A stretch of DNA of 64,000 nt from Prosthecobacter debontii. Lineage in GTDB: Bacteria; Verrucomicrobiota; Verrucomicrobiia; Chthoniobacterales; Chthoniobacteraceae. The position numbers and the translations under genes were made by a program. The stretch spans positions 17,842 through 81,841 of the forward strand of contig CAMAUI010000003.1 of the NCBI GenBank assembly GCA_945861385.1, read 5' to 3'. Below are positions 44,984-57,798 of the stretch, piece by piece. The notes under the pieces are model-generated. The model was not told the DNA's origin, did no database searches, and worked only from the letters and a program-made list of their open reading frames with translations. Within the stretch, counting starts at the first letter, position 1; each line of letters starts with the position of its first letter.

Positions 44984-45566
44984 CATGGTTCATGACTGAT
45001 CATTGACCGAGTCATGGAGGGGGTTGTCATGAGATTGTCAGCACGAAGTGAATCGTTCATTCGAAACGGGGCGCCGGTCTTCCCACGATCACTCCGCCTC
45101 CACCCAGATGCTCTCCGAGTGCCCGCCGAACTCCGGCGCGTACATGCACTGGAGGTTCGCGAAGCCCGTCTGGTAACGCCCGCGATGCACGATGCGCGTG
45201 GTGTATTCGAAGACGTAATTTCCCTTCGGCAGATACTCGAAAAAGAAGTGGCTCGCCGTGTCCCGTGTCGTCTCGTAGTAGCCGAGGCCGTCCTGGAATT
45301 TGAATTGCGAGAGCACGTTCACCGGCTCGGTGCCGCTCCCCCGATGGTCTTTCAAATGCACGTATTCCATGTCGCGATCCACCCGCACGATGATGCGGAC
45401 GACCAGCTCGTCGCCCACTTTCACCGGGCCTTTCACGGCTTCGAGCACGGGGCCTTTCTTCGTGAGCTGGCGGGTGAAAAGCGTCTTGGTGATCTTCAGT
45501 CCCGACGCGTCGGGATACGCGGTCACCTTGCTCATGTCCTCGAGTTACTGCCAGTGGACGCTGCCC
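44984..45566. repeat. direct repeat copy 1 (alpha-2-macroglobulin 3' end plus flank)
   Basis: CATGGTTCATGACTGATCATTGACCGAGTCATGGAG... near-identical to 47416-47988. Confidence 0.9.
45089..45535 (-). pseudogene. alpha-2-macroglobulin C-terminal fragment
   Basis: KTLFTRQLTKKGPVLEAVKGPVKVGDELVVRIIVRVDRDMEYVHLKDHRGSGTEPVNVLSQFKFQDGLGYYETTRDTASHFFFEYLPKGNYVFEYTTRIVHRGRYQTGFANLQCMYAPEFGGHSESIWVEAE, near-identical to the C-terminus of the 47514-53540 protein. Confidence 0.92.
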
Positions 45567-46242
45567 GTGCGCCGTTTGCCTCCGCTGCTGTGTTCCCTCG
45601 AACATAATCCCGTATAGCTCGATACCTGCCTCCGGTTGTTGAACAGCGACCAGTCTCCGACCAAAGGTCAGCGGCCCGACTCCGCGCGGAATCTTCTTAT
45701 GCCGCCCGGCCTCCTGGATGGCTCCAGTCAATTTCACTTCGCGCGCTTCCACGGACACGATCACGGCCGTGTTCACTTCCAGTCACTCCACCACCCATCC
45801 GGGCGCTTGCGCCTTAATGCGAACCCACGCCTTTCCCTTCCACCACCGCCCGGTGACGTGAATGTTGTGCATCGCCAGCAGGCTTCGGCCCATCGCCGCC
45901 AGTCGCTGCCGCTCACGCACCAGTTGCTGGCGCTGCCGGCTCATGGCCCGTTCGCGCTCCTCCTCCTCGCTGGGCACGCGCACGATGCTGAACGCCTTCT
46001 TGTTACCCCGCACGTAGCGGTCCAGTCGCTGGCACAACGCCAGCGCATCGAGTCGGTCGTTTTTTAACCCCCTTGCCTCGATCATCCCAATCCTGGGGCT
46101 GCACGACGAAGTTGGTCACGCCCATCGCTGCAAGCCGGCGATGCAAATGATACCCAAACGGCCCTGCCTCGTAACAAGTATAGACCTGCCCGGCCAGCTT
46201 CTGCTGCCGGGCGACAAAGAGCAGCAGCTCCTCAAAGGTCAT
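45555..46242 (-). pseudogene. decayed IS110-family transposase remnant
   Basis: VYTCYEAGPFGYHLHRRLAAMGVTNFVVQPQDWDDRGKGVK | NDRLDALALCQRLDRYVRGNKKAFSIVRVPSEEEERERAMSRQRQQLVRERQRLAAMGRSLLAMHN | ...RGVGPLTF | VGDWSLFNNRRQVSSYTGLCSREHSSGGKRRTGSVH spread over frames and an in-frame TGA. Confidence 0.88.
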
Positions 46243-47425: not shown

Positions 47426-47988
47426 GACTGATCATTGACCGAGTCATGGAGAGGTTTGTCATGAGATTGTCAGCACGATGTGAATCGGTCACTCGAAACT
47501 GGGGTCGCCGTCCTCACTCCGCCTCCACCCAAATGCTCTCCGAGTGCCCGCCGAACTCCGGCGCGTACATGCACTGGAGGTTCGCGAAGCCCGTCTGGTA
47601 ACGCCCGCGATGGACGATGCGCGTGGTGTATTCGAAGACGTAATTCCCCTTCGGCAGATACTCGAAAAAGAAGTGGCTCGCCGTGTCGCGCGTCGTCTCG
47701 TAGTAGCCGAGGCCGTCCTGGAATTTGAATTGCGAGAGCACGTTCACCGGCTCGGTGCCGCTCCCGCGATGGTCTTTCAAATGCACGTATTCCATGTCGC
47801 GATCCACCCGCACCACGATGCGCACGACCAGCTCGTCGCCGACTTTCACCGGGGCTTTCACGGCTTCGAGCACGGGGCCTTTCTTCGTGAGCTGGCGGGT
47901 GAAAAGCGTCTTCGTGACCTTCAGCGGCGTGCCTTCGTAGGCGGTCACTTTCGCCATGTCCTCGAGGTACTGCCAGTGGACGCTGCCC
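47416..47988. repeat. direct repeat copy 2 (alpha-2-macroglobulin 3' end plus flank)
   Basis: CATGGTTCATGACTGATCATTGACCGAGTCATGGAG... near-identical to 44984-45566. Confidence 0.9.
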
Positions 47989-50900
47989 CACGCCACGCCT
48001 TTGTCCGTCTTCTTCAGCGTGATCTTGCCGAGTTCCGGCTTCACCTCGCCACGCGCAAACTTCTGCTCGTAGAAACCGGTGCCCGCCTCGACTTTCTCCG
48101 GCTTGATGACCTCGCCGCCGAGCGTCAGCTCCACGAGCGCGTCGGACGCGAGCACGTTGTCCCCGCGCAGCAGCAGCGCGTAGATCGCGTCGGCGGTCGC
48201 CTTCGTCGTCTTCCAGTCCTGCGTCTGTTTTTGTTTCAAGAGCCACACCTTGCAGTCCTCGACGGCCTTCTCGTCGTTCATCACTTCGTCGAACGCCTCG
48301 ATCATCATCGCCTGCGATTCGATGGGCGCGCGGAACCACGACCACGAATGCTCCACGTCTCGCCAGAACATCCCCATCTCCTCATTGCTCACCGATCGCT
48401 CGTGCAGCGACTTCATGATGCCCTGCGCGGCGGCCTTGTCGCCAAACCGCTTGAGCGCCACGGCGAGATGCGCCTGCGGCTGGCGGTCGCCGAGCGCCAG
48501 CCAGTGCTTGCGCGCCTGCGCGAGAAAATAATCCACCGCCTCGCGATGCGCCGGGCCGATGGGTTTGTCGGCGAGGAAAAAGCTGCGTCCGTAGAGATAG
48601 AACGCAATCGTCGGGCTGAGGTTGTTTCCGTCCTTATGGCCGTGCTTCAAAATTTCGCGGTAGATGCGGTCAATCCATCCGTCCAGCCGCGCGAGCGAAC
48701 GCACTGCGGGCGCCGCGTCAATCTTCACGCCGAGATGCTGCAGCCGCCCGAAGCCCGTGGTGATGTAGAGCGTGATGTAATCGCACGCCGGCCCGCCGGG
48801 AAACCACGGCCACGCGCCGTCGCCGAGCTGCTGCTCCGCCAGCTTGCGCAGCAGCCGCGCCGTCTCGTCGTTGAGCCGGTTGTTGTCGAAAAGGATGCCA
48901 ACATTCCGCCGCGCCTGGCTCTCCGCCTGCGCCTGCCGCACCCACGGCGTCTCGTCGAGCATCACCGCCTTGATGTCCTGGTTCTTCTCCAGCGGACTGT
49001 CCAGCGCGGGCGTGCCCTTCCACTGGTCGAACACCGCGCGGATCTTCGGATCCGACGCCGCGATGTGCCGCGCGAGCGCATTCGCGTAGAGCCGGTTGAA
49101 CGTCTGCTCCGTGCATTCGTGCGGGAACTCCATCAAATACGGCAGCGCCATCACCGCGTACCACGACGGGTTCGACACCATCTGCACGGTGAGGCTCTGC
49201 GACTTGAGCGTGTCCGATTTTCCCGACTCGATCAGCCGCGTGAAATCAAACTTCTTCGTCTGGATCCCGCGCACCGGCAGCGGCAGCGACTCCGTCACCA
49301 GCGTGCGCCGTGAGAGCACCGGCAGCAGCCCCTCTTCACCGTCCGAGAGCTTCGCCGTCGAGCCCACCGCCTTGTAGCTGAGCGGCTCCGCGCCGTCCGG
49401 CACCTTGAGCTTCCATGAAAAACTGCGTGACTCATGCGACGGCAGATCGAAAGCCTGGTCGCCCGCCGCGTCCGCCAGCGCCGGCTTGCCCGTGCGCGCA
49501 TCCGCGAATGCGAGCCGCACTTTGCCGGCCTGCCGCGTGGCGGATTGGTTCGAGACCTTCACCGTGAACTCCAGCACGTCGCCCTCTCGCAAAAAGCGCG
49601 GCGGATTCGGCTGCACCATGATGTCCTTCGCCGTGACCACCTTGTCCTGGATAAAGCCCGAGCGCAGATCGCGATCGTGCGCGAAGCCCATGAAACGCCA
49701 CGTCGTCAGCGCCTCCGGCATCGTGAACTCCATCGCCACCGAGCCATCCTCGCGCGCGATGAGCTGCGGGAAAAAGAACGCCGTCTCCTCAAGATTTTTC
49801 CGCGCACTGACAGTGCCAAGGTCAATCGCGGGCGGTGGGGGCGGAGCGCCGACATCGCCACCATTCTTGTCCCTGCCTGCGTTACTGGCCCTCTTTCTCT
49901 CCCCCTCGGCAGGCTCGGCGTCAGCGACAAACGCCGCCTGTTCCCGCAATCCGTTTTGCATGGCAGCCATCTGCGGCGCGCCCGGTGCCGCGGATGCCAT
50001 CGGCATCGCCGCGCCTTTGGCCATCATGCGACCCTCCCCCCTGCCGCCGCCAAGGCCATCCATCATCATTTCCGGCCCGCCCATAAAGTGATGTCCCGCG
50101 ATCGCATTCGGAAACCTGCGGTAGGAGAACGAGCCGTCCTTCTGATCGAACGGCCACTGTCCGTGCAAATGCTGGAGCGGTTTCAGCACGTTATGGAAGT
50201 GCATGCTCAACCGCGAAAAGTCCTGCCGGAACACGGTGAACGCATGCTGCCAGTTGTGCGGTTTGAATGCATCGAGCGACTGGTCGTAGAGCGCGCAGAC
50301 AAGCTCCGCGACGGCCTTCTTCGCATCCGGCCCCGTGACGACGGCGGTCCATGTCTCCTTTTGCGCGGGTTCGAGTTTCGAGGTGAAATGCTCCCACTTC
50401 ACCTTCAATTCCTTGTTGCTCCACGGCACCTCGATTTTTCGCGAGGTGAGATACGCGCGGTTCTCGCGCACCATCGTGACGTGCAGCGTGAAGCCGCCGC
50501 GCATCGCCTCGGTCACCGCCTGTTTCGCCTGCTGCTGCGGCAGGCCGTTTTCCGTCCAGAAACTTTGCAGCATCTTCCCGCGATGCTCGACCTGGATGAA
50601 AGCGCGCGCCTGCGCGTAGCCCGTGCCCCACACCGCCATGAACTCGGCGCCCGGCTCCAGCGACCACTTCGGCGCGGCGACGAGGTTCGGCAGGCGCACG
50701 GCCAGCGGCTTGTTGTCGAGCTTGAGCACGTTGAACTGGAACTGCGCGGTGACTTTTTTTCCGAAGCGATCCTTCGTCTCGAGCATCGCGCGGTACGGCC
50801 CGGCCTCGAGTTTGAAAGACAGCGCCGCCTTGCCCGCGCCGTCGGTCTTGAATGCGCTTTCCGCCGCGACCTCGCCGAGATCCCACGAGGTGGGGTTCGA

Positions 50901-53540
50901 CGGATCGGGCTCCGGCTCCTTCGCCAGCAGAGGCACCGGCCCGCGCCGCGGCCTGGTGCGGCGCTCGGTGAGGTCCGGGCGCACGACCTGCGCGGGCTGC
51001 TTGAGACGGTGGATGTTCAGCACGCCAGTCGCCGCCTGCCCCTCGCCGTCATTGGTGAGCGTCGAGAGTGAAATTTCCACGGCCTTCGTCACCGTCTGCC
51101 ACTCATCCGCCGAGAGCGACGCCTTCAGCGCGGTGTAGCCGATGTTCACGCCGCGCTGCGCCGTGCGCGTCTCGCCGGTCGTGTCCGTGACATCCGCGTG
51201 GACGGTGAATGAAAATGTCGGCTCGTCCTTTTCCAAAACCGAGCGGTCGGGCTTCGCCACAAACTCCACGACAAAGCTCCCGTCGTCCTTCGTCACCGTC
51301 GTGCCATGCGCGATCTCCTGCGCGGCTTGCGCCGGCATGGGGCGCCACCAAAAGCAGCGGCCCCACCAATCCGGAAACCGCACCTGGCGCACGACGCGGT
51401 AGCGCACCTTCGCGCCACCGATCGCCGCACCCGTGTATGCCGTGGCCTTTCCACCGACAGCCACCTTTTCGCCGAGCTTGCCCGGGACCTTTGGCGGCTC
51501 GACGGCCACTTGGAATTTCGGCCGCTTGTATTCCTCCACGCTCACGCCCGCCGCCCCATGCGGCGCGCCCATCGTGCGAATCATCATCTGCCCCGCGAGC
51601 CGGTCGCGCGGCGCGGTGAAGCTGCCGTTGAACGAGCCGTAGTCGTTCGCCTTGTGCTCCGCCTTCGCGATCTCCTTCCCGTTCACGTCCGTGAAAATCA
51701 CGCCCACCGCCTGTCCGCCGAGCACCTTGTAACTGTCATTGTCGCGGTCGGCGGAGATGCAGATGCCCTTGTAGCGGATCGTCTGCCCTGGCCGGTAGAG
51801 CGAGCGGTCGGTGAAGAAGATCGTCTGCGCATGCGCGTCGCGTCCCCTGTTTTGGTGCCAGAGCTGAAACGGGTCACTCGTCGCGAGCCGCTGATTCTTG
51901 AACGACACCAGCGCCAGCACCATCCGGTTGGGTGCGGCCTCCGTCGAGAACAGCCCGTTCGCATCGGTCTTCACCTTCTGGCCGGCGCTGAACACACCGT
52001 TGTTCCCCGCGATCCAGAGCTGCACATCCGCGCCCTCGACGGGCTGGCCGGAATTCGCCTCGAGCACGAAGCCCTCCGCCTTCCCCGCGCCCTGCTCCGA
52101 GCGCATCACGATGGCGAGGTCGCTCACCCAGAAATCGGTGAAAGTGACCACGTTATTCTGGTCGCCGAAGTTCTTGTCGTGGCTCGCGATCAGAAGATAA
52201 AAGCCCGGCTTCAAATCCTTCGGCGCATCGAACTCCTCCACGCGCTCGCGGAAATCCGGCGTCGGCGGCAACTGCGCCGACCACACCTTCTCCGGCTTCG
52301 CCGCGAGCAGCGCACGGCGCTCGTGGTCTTCGAGCCATTGGAACTGCCCGTTCCGCTTCACCCGCTCCGTCCACTCCACGCTCACCACGCGGAAATGGAT
52401 CTCCGTGAGATTGCGGTAGCGCACCGAGATCTGCCCGAGCGGCGCATTCCACACGCGCTCGACGCCCACCTGCGACGACTTCGCCTCGATCTGCTGGATG
52501 AGATTGTGGCAGAGCCTGCCGCCGATGCTGTTGGCGAATGCCCCCGCGCCCTGCTTCGCGATCTTGTGCGCCTCCGCCGGCTCGTCCTCCCCCGCGAGCA
52601 CGCTGGCCCAATCATGCCGCGCCCATGCCGACAGCTCATGGTCGGCCCACTGCTCCACAAACCGTTTCAGCGCCGCCTTGTGCCGCGCGTTCTTCTCCTC
52701 GCCCACCGCGAAATTTTTCCCGAACCGAATCCGCTCGAGGTCGCAGTGCAGCAGCGCCGACTTGTCCGCAGCGCCCGCGTGAAAGCGCAGCAGCGCCTGG
52801 TAGAGATGCACCGCCTTCACAGTGTTCGACTCCCCCGCCGCGTCCCACTTTACAAAATCCTCCGTCGTCCCAAACACCGGCCCCTCGGCCGCCAGCTCGA
52901 ATTCATCCTGCGCCTTCGCCGCCGCCTGCTCGCCCGATGCGTAAAATGCCAGCGCCTCGTGCGCGAGGAAGTCGTAGAGCGTCGGACGCCACGCATCCGG
53001 CACCGTGCCTTTCTCCAGCAGGTCATTGTAGCTCGCGACGGGGATTTTCTTCAGCTCCGCGTCCGCCGCGAGCGCCTTGGTAAAATGCGCGTCAATCTCC
53101 GCAAACAGCCTCGGCAGATCCCACGTCGTGATGTCCTTGCCCGGCGCCGCCGCCGTCTGTGTCCGCTGCATGAAACGCCAGCGGTTCTGCTGGAAATACT
53201 GCCAGTACCACTCCGCAAGGATCGCCTCCATCACCGGCAGCATTTCCTTCGGCGCCTTCGCCATCTCCGCCTCCATGCGCGTGATCTTTTCCTCCGGCTT
53301 CCCGCCCTGCACCATCCCCTCGTAGCCGATGCGCGAAGCCACCGCCTTGATCGCCTCGGGCCAAGCCTTCTCCTTCACCGCCGCGTCAATGATCGGCGTG
53401 AGCTTCTCGATGGCCGTTTTTGGCAGGCCCTTGTTTGCCGCATCCTCGACCTCCTTCCACATCGCCTCACGCCCGCCCGCGGCGAGGAGAGTGAGCGGAA
53501 AAAGGAGGATGGCTGCCACGATGCTGGTTTTGATTTTCAT
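47514..53540 (-). CDS. alpha-2-macroglobulin family protein
   Basis: 2008 aa; signal peptide; TIFFTDRSLYRPGQTIRYKGI; HECTEQTFNRLYANALARH (CxEQ thioester motif); MG and bait-region-like domains. Confidence 0.93.
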   Translation of the reverse strand: MKIKTSIVAAILLFPLTLLAAGGREAMWKEVEDAANKGLPKTAIEKLTPIIDAAVKEKAWPEAIKAVASRIGYEGMVQGGKPEEKITRMEAEMAKAPKEMLPVMEAILAEWYWQYFQQNRWRFMQRTQTAAAPGKDITTWDLPRLFAEIDAHFTKALAADAELKKIPVASYNDLLEKGTVPDAWRPTLYDFLAHEALAFYASGEQAAAKAQDEFELAAEGPVFGTTEDFVKWDAAGESNTVKAVHLYQALLRFHAGAADKSALLHCDLERIRFGKNFAVGEEKNARHKAALKRFVEQWADHELSAWARHDWASVLAGEDEPAEAHKIAKQGAGAFANSIGGRLCHNLIQQIEAKSSQVGVERVWNAPLGQISVRYRNLTEIHFRVVSVEWTERVKRNGQFQWLEDHERRALLAAKPEKVWSAQLPPTPDFRERVEEFDAPKDLKPGFYLLIASHDKNFGDQNNVVTFTDFWVSDLAIVMRSEQGAGKAEGFVLEANSGQPVEGADVQLWIAGNNGVFSAGQKVKTDANGLFSTEAAPNRMVLALVSFKNQRLATSDPFQLWHQNRGRDAHAQTIFFTDRSLYRPGQTIRYKGICISADRDNDSYKVLGGQAVGVIFTDVNGKEIAKAEHKANDYGSFNGSFTAPRDRLAGQMMIRTMGAPHGAAGVSVEEYKRPKFQVAVEPPKVPGKLGEKVAVGGKATAYTGAAIGGAKVRYRVVRQVRFPDWWGRCFWWRPMPAQAAQEIAHGTTVTKDDGSFVVEFVAKPDRSVLEKDEPTFSFTVHADVTDTTGETRTAQRGVNIGYTALKASLSADEWQTVTKAVEISLSTLTNDGEGQAATGVLNIHRLKQPAQVVRPDLTERRTRPRRGPVPLLAKEPEPDPSNPTSWDLGEVAAESAFKTDGAGKAALSFKLEAGPYRAMLETKDRFGKKVTAQFQFNVLKLDNKPLAVRLPNLVAAPKWSLEPGAEFMAVWGTGYAQARAFIQVEHRGKMLQSFWTENGLPQQQAKQAVTEAMRGGFTLHVTMVRENRAYLTSRKIEVPWSNKELKVKWEHFTSKLEPAQKETWTAVVTGPDAKKAVAELVCALYDQSLDAFKPHNWQHAFTVFRQDFSRLSMHFHNVLKPLQHLHGQWPFDQKDGSFSYRRFPNAIAGHHFMGGPEMMMDGLGGGRGEGRMMAKGAAMPMASAAPGAPQMAAMQNGLREQAAFVADAEPAEGERKRASNAGRDKNGGDVGAPPPPPAIDLGTVSARKNLEETAFFFPQLIAREDGSVAMEFTMPEALTTWRFMGFAHDRDLRSGFIQDKVVTAKDIMVQPNPPRFLREGDVLEFTVKVSNQSATRQAGKVRLAFADARTGKPALADAAGDQAFDLPSHESRSFSWKLKVPDGAEPLSYKAVGSTAKLSDGEEGLLPVLSRRTLVTESLPLPVRGIQTKKFDFTRLIESGKSDTLKSQSLTVQMVSNPSWYAVMALPYLMEFPHECTEQTFNRLYANALARHIAASDPKIRAVFDQWKGTPALDSPLEKNQDIKAVMLDETPWVRQAQAESQARRNVGILFDNNRLNDETARLLRKLAEQQLGDGAWPWFPGGPACDYITLYITTGFGRLQHLGVKIDAAPAVRSLARLDGWIDRIYREILKHGHKDGNNLSPTIAFYLYGRSFFLADKPIGPAHREAVDYFLAQARKHWLALGDRQPQAHLAVALKRFGDKAAAQGIMKSLHERSVSNEEMGMFWRDVEHSWSWFRAPIESQAMMIEAFDEVMNDEKAVEDCKVWLLKQKQTQDWKTTKATADAIYALLLRGDNVLASDALVELTLGGEVIKPEKVEAGTGFYEQKFARGEVKPELGKITLKKTDKGVAWGSVHWQYLEDMAKVTAYEGTPLKVTKTLFTRQLTKKGPVLEAVKAPVKVGDELVVRIVVRVDRDMEYVHLKDHRGSGTEPVNVLSQFKFQDGLGYYETTRDTASHFFFEYLPKGNYVFEYTTRIVHRGRYQTGFANLQCMYAPEFGGHSESIWVEAE

Positions 53541-53889
53541 TGGGAGTCGGAGTTGATGTTGGTGCTGCTCGGTGCGGATCGCGCCCGGATGAAATCACGC
53601 TACCTCGCAAATTGAACTGCAATTCTTCGCGATCACATGCTTCGGCTGATCCGCGCGCATCCTCACGGAAACCATCACCCGGCGTGTCACAGCCCAGTGC
53701 GAGGTTTGTAAAATATATGTCAGCCCTTTGCCTTCCTTCCCGACCCACGGGCGGCACCGTCACCTTCCCCGTGGCGCCCCAGAGCGTGGCCGCCAGGCGC
53801 AGCACCGTGTGTGCTGCGTTCATCCGTTCACCAGACACCGGGCGTGATCAGAATCAGATCCAGCGACGGGAGCGGACGCGGCGTTTTTT

Positions 53890-54009
53890 GTGGCACAGTG
53901 CGTCCCGCCTGTGGGGCCAGCGGGCATCCTGCCCGCAGGGTCGGATGGGCCCATCAAAGACGCCGGGCGAGACGCCCGCTGGCCCCACAGGCGGGACGCA
54001 CTGTGCCAC
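53890..54009. repeat. palindromic structured element with perfect 36-bp arms
   Basis: GTGGCACAGTGCGTCCCGCCTGTGGGGCCAGCGGGC (53890-53925) is the exact reverse complement of 53974-54009; internal CGGGCA-TCC-TGCCCG and CGGGCG-AGA-CGCCCG. Confidence 0.97.
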
Positions 54010-54264
54010 GTTCCCATCACGGCTCCGCTGTGGACTCGATTTTAATCACGCCCCCCAGACACCAGACGCCGCCGCGCAGAATGAGGCATTGACAGGCCCG
54101 CGCTTTTCCCGGCAACTCCACCCCATGCAACCCCTCCTCTATCCGCCAGCGACTCCGCTCCCTCCCGAGCATTGCGCGCAGTCTTGGGCACCCGCTTGCC
54201 CGCAGGGAATGTCGCTTTTCCGAAGCCTCTCTTCTCAAGGCAAACCAACAACACAACAACACCA

Positions 54265-54354
54265 ATGAAAACACATGACCAATCCCAATCCATCGCCTGG
54301 CACGGCATAAGACCGTTGCGCCATACGCTTGCGCTTATCTTCGCAGTAGTCGTC
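54265..54354 (+). pseudogene. 5' fragment (signal peptide) of CHRD/thrombospondin-3 protein gene, separated by IS insertion
   Basis: MKTHDQSQSIAWHGIRPLRHTLALIFAVVV, in frame across the IS with 55604 onward after conceptual excision. Confidence 0.85.
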
Positions 54355-54387
54355 TGAGATGCAACGGATTTCTGGACCAGCATTTGT

Positions 54388-55242
54388 TTAGTGGTTGGAG
54401 TTGAAGTTGGCCTCGAAAGCAGCGGGGGTCTTGTAGCCGAGGGAGGAGTGTTTGCGGTGGGTGTTGTAGTAGGATTCGATGTAGGCGAAGATTTCGATGT
54501 TGGCATCGGCGTGGGCGATGAAGGTGCCGTCCGCGAGCATCTCGGTCTTGAGGGTGCCCATGAAGGACTCGGTCCAGGCGTTATGATAGGGATTGGCGCG
54601 GGCGGACATGCTTTGGCGCATCCCGGCCGCGCGCAGGAGTTCCCGGAAGGTGCCGCTGCCGTACTGGCTGCCACGGTCACTGTGGAAGATGAGGCCGGGA
54701 AGCGTGCGGCGGGATCCCAAGGCTTGCTTGAGGGCGTTGATGACCAGGTCGGCGCGCAGATGGCCAGCCAGGGACCAACCGACGATTTTGCGCGAGCAGA
54801 GGTCGATGACCACGGCCAGATAGAGCCATCCGGCGGAGGTGGGGATGAAGGTGATGTCTCCGGCCCAGACCTGGTCGGGCCTGGCCGGCAGGGGTTGGTC
54901 GAGGAGCAGGTTCGGGGAGGGTTTGTCGGCGCGACCGTCGCTGGTTTTTGGCACGTAGGTTTTGGGCTGGATGGCTCGCAGGCCGCGCTGGCGCATGATC
55001 CTGCGGATGCGATCGGGCGCGCAGACCTCGCCCGCGTCGGAGAGTTCCTCGCCGATTCGCCGGTAGCCATAGCGGCGGCGATGGCGTTTGAAGATGGCTT
55101 CGATCAGGCCGCCGATCCTGTGGTTCTCGGACTGGGTGGGCGTGGGCGAGGCGGCGTGGTAGAAGCTGCTGCGAGGCACTTGAAGGCTGGCGCAGATTGG
55201 ACGGATGCCATGGCCGGTGGCCTGGTGGATGTCTTCGATCAT
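54388..55242 (-). CDS. IS3-family transposase OrfB (rve integrase core)
   Basis: MIEDIHQATGHGIRPICASLQVPRSSFYHA...RRYGYRRIGEEL...DQVWAGDITFIPTSAGWLYLAVVIDLCSRKIVGWSL...HSDRGSQYGSGTFRELL...NAWTESFMGTLKTEM. Confidence 0.95.
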   Translation of the reverse strand: MIEDIHQATGHGIRPICASLQVPRSSFYHAASPTPTQSENHRIGGLIEAIFKRHRRRYGYRRIGEELSDAGEVCAPDRIRRIMRQRGLRAIQPKTYVPKTSDGRADKPSPNLLLDQPLPARPDQVWAGDITFIPTSAGWLYLAVVIDLCSRKIVGWSLAGHLRADLVINALKQALGSRRTLPGLIFHSDRGSQYGSGTFRELLRAAGMRQSMSARANPYHNAWTESFMGTLKTEMLADGTFIAHADANIEIFAYIESYYNTHRKHSSLGYKTPAAFEANFNSNH

Positions 55243-55552
55243 TTGGCGGAGTTGGCGGGGAGTCTGGTGCCCAGGATAACGGCGGCCTTTTTAAAATGTC
55301 ATTCTCCTGGCGCAGGAGGGTGTTTTCGCGGCGCAGGGCGCGCAGCTCGTCCGCTTCGGAGCGCCCGCCTGCGGCTGGCGCTCCTGCGCTGCCGAGCTGC
55401 GCGCCCTGCGAGCTGCGCCTCCAGCTGTAGAGCAGGTCGCTGCTGATGCAGAGTTCTTCGGCGACTTGGGAGACGGGTTTGCCGGTGCCCAGCAGTTCGA
55501 CGGCCTGTGCTTTGAACTCGGGGGTGTATCGCTTGCGTTGGACTAGGTTCAT
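55239..55552 (-). CDS. IS3-family transposase OrfA (HTH), needs a frame change at an A-run
   Basis: MNLVQRKRYTPEFKAQAVELLGTGKPVSQVAEELCISSDLLYSWRRSSQ...LRALRRENTLLRQENDILK then frame shift to KAAVILGTRLPANSAK*. Confidence 0.8.
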
Positions 55553-55600
55553 GGATTTTCGATTCTGGAGGTTCTTGGTCCAGAAATCTAGAGCACCTCA

Positions 55601-57217
55601 GTCAGCCTCCTTTCAACTCCTTTCGCACGGGCTGGAGTAGCGCCAGTATCTCAATATGAGGCTGTACTGAACGGTGCCAGCGAGGTGCCGCCAAATGCCT
55701 CGCCAGCCACGGGAACATTGACTCTGACCGTGGACTTTGGCACGGGAACCGTCGCCTACTCCGGCAGCTTTGCGGGGCTCGTCGGACCATCCACAGTAGC
55801 GCACATCCACGGCCCTGCGCCACTTGGGATGAATGCAGGTGTCATCCTGCCGCTAAATGTGGTTCCCGGTAGTCCCCCCACAGGCGGCACCTTCAATGGC
55901 GGCGGTACGCTGACCGCCCCGCAGGTTAATGACCTTGTGAACGGCTTGCTCTACGTCAACGTGCATTCCGCGGCGTTGCCTGGCGGGGAAATCCGGGGCC
56001 AACTGACGCCAGTCGCTCCTCCTCCATTGGATAGCGATATGGACGGCATCCCTGACGCAAGCGACAATGCCCCGTTCATCCCCAACCCCGACCAGACGGA
56101 CACCGATGGCGACGGCATCGGCGATGTGGCCGACCCGACCCCTTTTGGCCCTGACTCTGACAACGACGGCACCCCCGACATGTTCGACCCGTTTCCATTT
56201 GATCCGTTTAATGGTGATGCCGACCTCGACGGCGTCCCGGACGTGGTGGACAATGCGCCGTTCGTCTTCAACCCCGGCCAGGAAGACTTCGATGGCGACG
56301 GCATCGGCGATGTGGCCGACCCGACTCCTTTTGGCCCTGACTCCGACGGCGATGGCACCCCCGACATGTTCGACCTGTTTCCTCTTGATCCGACTAATGG
56401 TGATGCCGACCTCGACGGCATCCCGGACGCCAGCGACAACGCCCCGTTCATCGCCAACCCCGACCAGGCGGACACCGATGGCGACGGCATCGGCGATGTG
56501 GCCGACCCGACTCCTTTTGGAGATGCCACCGTACTCTTCATCAAGGGTGGTGCGGTGCCCGGCGTACTCCCTGCGGCGACATTCACCGGCTTCGGCGTGC
56601 CGGCCATCAATTCGGCGGGCAAGGTCGCTTTCCTCGGCAAATGGAGCGGCGGCTCGGGCATCTTCGCAGACGGAGTGCTTGTGGCAAAGGCGGGCCAGGT
56701 GCTCTCGGGCACGACGGCGATCAAGTCCGTGAAAGACCCGGTCATTGACGACGACGGCCATGTGTCCTTCCCCGCAACGCTCATGGGCGCGGGCATCACC
56801 TCGGCCAATGACTCGGCACTCATCAGCAACGCCCCCGGTGGCACGCTGGCGATCGTGGCTCAGGAGGGCACAACAGCCCCGGATTCCGGCGGCGCAGTGT
56901 GGAAGAGCTTCCAATCGCTTGCCGCCCCCGGCGGCGGCGGCGGAGTGCTCATCCTCGGCACCTTGGTGCAAGCCGGCACCATCACCGCGCTGAATGACAC
57001 CGGCGTATGGTCCGCCGACGCATCGGGAACCCTGCACCTCGTGCTCCAGGAAGGCACGACGGTGATCGGGGGGAAGACGGTGAAGAGCTTCAAGGCGCTC
57101 AAGAGCGTGAGCGGCACGCCCGGCCAGACGCATGCCTTCAACGGCAGCGGAGAACTGGTGGCACACGTGACCTTCGACACCGGCGAGCAGGCCGTGGCAC
57201 ACATACCCCTCCCGTAA
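55601..57217 (+). pseudogene. CHRD-domain / thrombospondin type-3 repeat secreted protein, body of IS-interrupted gene
   Basis: VSQYEAVLNGASEVPPNASPATGTLTLTVDFGTGTVAYSGSFAGL (CHRD); repeated DADLDGIPDASDNAPFI.NPDQ.DTDGDGIGDVADPTPFGPDSD.DGTPDMFD. Confidence 0.85.
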
Positions 57218-57238
57218 ACAGAGCCCGCAAAATCAGCA

Positions 57239-57273
57239 ACGCCCCGCCTGGCGCAAGCCCGGCGGGGCGTTTT
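57239..57273 (+). terminator. Rho-independent terminator
   Basis: CGCCCCGCC TGGCGCAAGCCC GGCGGGGCG TTTT. Confidence 0.8.
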
Positions 57274-57312
57274 GCTATCGGGCTGTCAGGCATGTGGCTT
57301 TCCGACCGGCGT

Positions 57313-57798
57313 TCAGATTTCATCCCCGCGCCGCGCCTGCTCCGCCACCCCGCCCGGCGGCGCCTTGGCCACGGGGAAGGCCCAGTAGTGATAGACGAGA
57401 AATTTCAACGGGCCGAAGCAGAGCTGGAGCACCACGACATCGAGATCGAGGGGAGAGGATTGCAGTTTGAGCACGTTGAAATGTTTGAACGCCGTCAGCA
57501 GGCCCGCGGCGATCAGCCCGAGCACGATGACCGCCGTGAGGTAGCGCGCAAAGGCGTCGCGTTTGCGGGAGTCGGTGCGGAAATTGACGAAATAATTCCA
57601 GCAAAAGAAGAACGTCGTGCTCACACCAATGCTGCACGCGGATTTCGCCCACACGGGCATTTCCGTGTGCGCGCTGAGGTATTTGAATGGCGTGGCGATG
57701 AGGAGGTAATTCACCCCGGCGCCGACCATGAACCAAAGCAGCCGCATCCGCGCCGTCTGGCGCGGCCTGCTGGTTTCACGGGTGATTTTTCCATCCAT
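57313..57798 (-). CDS. GtrA family membrane protein
   Basis: LLWFMVGAGVNYLLIATPFKYLSAHTEMPVWAKSACSIGVSTTFFFCWNYFVNFRT...KFLVYHYWAFP. Confidence 0.8.
   Translation of the reverse strand: MDGKITRETSRPRQTARMRLLWFMVGAGVNYLLIATPFKYLSAHTEMPVWAKSACSIGVSTTFFFCWNYFVNFRTDSRKRDAFARYLTAVIVLGLIAAGLLTAFKHFNVLKLQSSPLDLDVVVLQLCFGPLKFLVYHYWAFPVAKAPPGGVAEQARRGDEI

Follow-up and report, generated by a model that had tools for sequence, protein, structure and literature searches.

Insertion sequences of the IS3 family are recognised by terminal inverted repeats starting with TGA together with a target duplication of 3-5 bp, transpose through a circular intermediate, and carry the sequence A_AAA_AAG in the OrfA frame as their classical -1 frameshift signal. 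In well-characterised members, -1 frameshifting takes place within this A6 motif (PMC6211511, PMC3219604).

Two groups of proteins are the closest counterparts of the gene described here: bacterial secreted CHRD proteins (PF07452), in which a signal peptide precedes a CHRD domain that carries EVPP close to its beginning, and proteins with the NxxGxxAF tandem-repeat (TIGR05002) or DUF7453 (PF24251) domain. In the 64,000-nucleotide stretch analysed in this study (referred to as the window), an IS3-family element lies, with high confidence, in the hydrophobic core of the putative signal peptide of a gene for a secreted CHRD-TSP3-DUF7453 protein. This confidence applies to the best explanation as a whole: insertion, loss of export and function, and later loss of one A from the element. 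The structure of the locus, the domains, the reading frame, the N-termini of homologues, and the missing A were all read directly from sequence. Overall, the locus shows an ordinary mutation, an IS3 element inserted into a signal peptide; as a minor extra, the frameshift site of the element appears to be broken.

Ends, genes and family of the insertion sequence

The element occupied 1,246 bp (54355..55600), with the transposase genes on the - strand. It started with TGAGATGCAACGGATTTCTGGACCA at 54355 and ended with TGGTCCAGAAATCTAGAGCACCTCA at 55600 (termini TGAG...CTCA), and comparison of TGAGATGCAACGGATTTCTGGACCA with the reverse-complemented other end, TGAGGTGCTCTAGATTTCTGGACCA, gave imperfect 25-bp inverted repeats with 20/25 identical positions: IRR (54355..54379), downstream of the transposase genes, and IRL (55576..55600), upstream of them. 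The left flank ended in ...GCAGTAGTCGTC and the right flank began with GTCAGCCTCC. GTC was found on both sides (54352..54354 and 55601..55603) as a target-site duplication, the length of which (3 bp) is real and compatible with the IS3 family, with an ambiguity in exact register (the left flank ends in GTCGTC). A paralogue in the same genome (L002; G000:C95:1-1246, at the start of contig 95) aligned over its full length of 1,246 bases with 71% identity and had TGAG...CTCA termini; the same length and termini independently fixed the ends of the window copy. The coordinates, the imperfect repeats, and the flanking GTC proposed in an initial annotation of this DNA were thus all confirmed. Since no near-identical copy was found in the assembly, the next best match within the genome being 71%, this copy is unique and a repeat-driven chimeric assembly is unlikely. 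The target duplications of sister IS copies were also checked, and none was informative (contig ends or a degraded copy). The contigs G000:C95:1-1246 (L002), G000:C39:5-149 (L003), and G000:C100:4-115 (L005) began inside a second IS3 lineage, 71% identical to the window copy; this second lineage is likely present in multiple copies and causes breaks in the assembly.

Two transposase genes were found on the - strand. OrfA (55241..55552; its end was set by the frame of related copies) contained HTH_Tnp_1, and OrfB (54388..55242; 284 aa) contained HTH_21 and the rve integrase core, with the D..D..E motifs AGDITF, FHSDRGSQ, and TESFMGTLKTE. The score of OrfB against the IS3-family transposase model NF033516 was 304 bits (cut-off of 160; E value of 1.5e-90). 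Together with HTH_Tnp_1 in OrfA and the DDE motifs in OrfB, this bore out the previous assignment to the IS3 family, to which the element is also similar in the TGA...TCA imperfect inverted repeats, the 3-bp duplication and, in relatives of the window copy, the -1 position of the OrfB frame relative to that of OrfA. OrfA also contained a palindromic stretch that raised the suspicion of an inserted repeat; this was rejected, a comparable segment being present in L002.

The OrfA/OrfB frameshift site

The OrfA/OrfB junction of five relatives, one from the same genome (L002) and four from other genomes (L167, L169, L178, and L182), read TTTTAAAAAAGG, corresponding to A_AAA_AAG in the OrfA frame, whereas that of the window copy read TTTTAAAAAGG on the - strand, with a run of only five A's (55288..55292). 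The source genome of L182 also held a fragment 91% identical to the window IS. The OrfA frame of the window copy broke at the A run and was thereafter open, without meaning, to 54677. In the frame analysis, a -1 shift led to a 104-residue dead-end product, and only a shift of +1 or -2 reached OrfB; this differs from the IS3 family in general. A one-base deletion at the slippery site probably blocks the formation of OrfAB by the normal -1 frameshift. Transcriptional slippage requires approximately seven or more A's (PMC6211511), and a run of five is therefore unlikely to allow rescue by this route.

The five-A run could instead be a homopolymer sequencing or assembly error. We read A5 as an inactivating mutation in an IS3-family member, or as a sequence error, in a lineage that overall has the A6G feature. 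Unless such an error accounts for the missing A, the window copy has probably lost its autonomy, since the -1 shift no longer gives OrfAB. When OrfB was compared with a 91% identical fragment from another genome, 40 of the 55 differences were at third codon positions, which indicates that selection kept the transposase of this IS lineage functional and, therefore, that the deletion at the slippery site is likely young. The initial annotation recognised the IS3 insertion but missed this probable deletion, which provides a small example of an IS copy disabled at its recoding signal though both ORFs look open.

The interrupted gene and its parental protein

The 5' part of the interrupted gene (54265..54354, + strand) consisted of 30 codons, MKTHDQSQSIAWHGIRPLRHTLALIFAVVV, encoding the n-region of a putative Sec signal peptide and the initial half of its hydrophobic core, and its translation ended after codon 30, at the TGA (54355-54357) with which the IS begins. 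The 3' part (55604..57217, + strand) was open over 537 codons and encoded the rest of the putative signal peptide, SLLSTPFARA/G, followed by the CHRD, TSP3, and DUF7453/NxxGxxAF domains. When 54354 was joined to 55604, a frame of 567 codons without a stop was obtained (start MKTHDQSQSIAWHGIRPLRHTLALIFAVVVSLLSTPFARAGVAPVSQYEAVLNGASEVPPNAS), whereas joins offset by 1 or 2 bases met a stop after 40-49 codons. The earlier proposal that removal of the IS plus one GTC joins the codon 54352-54354 to 55604 in frame was therefore correct, with a product of 567 aa. The accompanying statement that excision restores the frame is true, but follows from any 3-bp duplication and provides no separate evidence. 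Frame continuity alone is expected by chance in 1 in 3 cases for two unrelated same-strand ORFs, and a 3-bp duplication in 1 in 64. The joined frame is more than chance because the two halves form one signal peptide, the N-terminal portion is required for the CHRD domain, and homologues share this arrangement. The positive n-region, hydrophobic core, and ARA/G site of the joined N-terminus, as judged by eye, were present in the joined frame only.

The CHRD domain (PF07452) corresponded to residues 19-134 of the 3' part (+ strand), with a score of 95.2 bits against a cut-off of 24.1, and the TSP3 repeats (PF02412) to residues of about 139-305 (74.9 bits against 25), among which seven D-x-D units, calcium-binding-type repeats of TSP3, were located. 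Both domains, already named in the initial annotation, were above their cut-offs; the C-terminal DUF7453/NxxGxxAF domain (residues 308-528; PF24251, 90 bits; TIGR05002, 76 bits against 50) had been missed. Although the protein resembles bacterial secreted CHRD proteins in its signal peptide and the subsequent CHRD with EVPP near the start, it differs from them in the addition of the TSP3 repeats and the C-terminal domain, and in the interruption by the IS. Similarly, the C-terminal 230 residues match TIGR05002/DUF7453 proteins well above the cut-off, but are fused here to CHRD and TSP3. No protein with the same full CHRD-TSP3-DUF7453 layout was found in the genomes searched. Ten further matches to DUF7453/NxxGxxAF were present in the same genome (contigs C55, C8, C51, C87, C99, and C14), several of them in very long open frames, and the domain was abundant across the family and present in many relatives.

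The first possible start codon of the 3' part was GTG (55685..55687, + strand); upstream of it was a stop codon, TAG at 55589, with no start codon between them. Given this possible start and the long ORF behind it, the two flanks could be unrelated: a small ORF on the left, an independent gene starting from GTG 55685 on the right, and the IS between them. We consider this very improbable: the CHRD domain defined by Pfam begins at residue 19 of the 3' part, 9 residues before GTG 55685, and both flanks combine into one signal peptide. Furthermore, GTG 55685 is the codon for the conserved valine of EVPP, within CHRD, and is therefore not the native start. In a protein search, CHRD proteins from the same order had a signal peptide approximately 20-30 residues ahead of the matching region. 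L210, L215, L217, and L230, with open frames of 181-204 aa, had signal peptides before CHRD and EVPP conserved at the position of the GTG; the N-termini were MKTLRIASIALALLVSTICFAGAQTFTGTFSGLNEVPPNAS for L210, MKNKNIGFCAIAALAVSVLLAPAAYSQTERFSASLAGANEVPPINT for L215, and MKTRSIGFWAIATLAASLFGAPVAHSATELFSANLSGEHEVPPINT for L230. We also examined whether homologues start at the GTG position with no N-terminal similarity to the 5' part. This was not the case: CHRD homologues with short N-termini began with signal peptides of their own, at a similar distance, and read through this position. The ancestral secreted protein with a signal peptide, as originally proposed, is supported by these homologues, and the analysis assigns this parental protein a likely start and a likely signal peptide. 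The insertion explains a pseudogene, with little reach beyond the source genome, and warns annotators against calling the gene at GTG 55685.

Consequence, age and surroundings of the insertion

Judging from the sequence, the IS3-family element would have inserted with duplication of GTC through an active transposase, either its own or one acting in trans, and the window copy would afterwards probably have lost one A at the slippery site. The gene may now yield a peptide of 30 residues at most. A product initiated internally from GTG 55685 would stay in the cytoplasm and have a truncated CHRD, so that export and function would be lost. Since the 5' part stops on the TGA of the IS and the 3' part has neither a signal peptide nor a start before EVPP, the secreted protein has very probably been lost. 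We infer the loss of export, the order of events, and the recency of the insertion from these features.

Two other fates of the gene were considered. IS elements in general are known to have outward promoter or start effects, by which the 3' part might still be expressed. This appears extremely unlikely here: a scan limited to the sigma-70 consensus detected nothing promoter-like on the + strand close to the end of the IS (the sole match was on the - strand inside the IS), no start codon lies between the stop at 55589 and 55685, and a product without the signal peptide would remain intracellular. The IS might alternatively act as a reversible switch, its precise excision at some rate turning secretion on and off. 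The downstream frame is intact, and exact excision at a 3-bp duplication is scarless; on the other hand, IS3 elements seldom excise precisely unless an excision-enhancing factor is present, formation of the transposase fusion is probably blocked by A5, and no sign of regulation was observed at the locus. A precedent is provided by an IS-excision enhancer in E. coli, which is reported to restore lacZ by IS excision (PMC9397093). A variant, in which the IS serves as a slow, reversible off-switch, kept in place because A5 stops its own transposase but still removable in trans by an excision factor or by an active relative, deserves as little credence as the switch itself, for which the probability is minimal. 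An insertion mutation with loss of the secreted protein remains the preferred reading.

The downstream 537 codons contained no stop or frameshift, and their codon-position G+C pattern was of the coding type; both features fit a young insertion. The recent date given in the initial annotation is accordingly plausible, but the event is undated: neither an orthologue nor an empty site was found, none of the 57 genomes searched (genus and family) giving a match close to the protein as a whole, and near-identical IS copies were likewise absent from the assembly. Across the order, 213 genomes yielded homologues at the CHRD level only, and a wider contig scan (genome_contigs) gave only TSP3-repeat look-alikes from many phyla. 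We infer an uninterrupted ancestral state from the sequence.

Similarity to the sister species stopped at about 53723 and 57320, and the CHRD gene was located in a species-specific block (53724-57320). The orthologues of the flanking genes, a 2,008-aa gene (47514-53540; alpha-2-macroglobulin-like by eye) and GtrA-like/KAS genes, were on separate contigs of the sister species with other neighbours. A near-perfect palindrome of approximately 120 bases, with arms of approximately 45 bases, was observed at 53880-54020; it belonged to a MITE- or REP-like dispersed repeat family with 57 matches in the genome, many of which were palindromes counted in both orientations. At 45089-45568, approximately 2 kb beyond the 2,008-aa gene, there was a partial duplication, in which the last 475 bases of that gene recurred with 94% identity, and the 148-aa ORF located there may be a pseudogene fragment.
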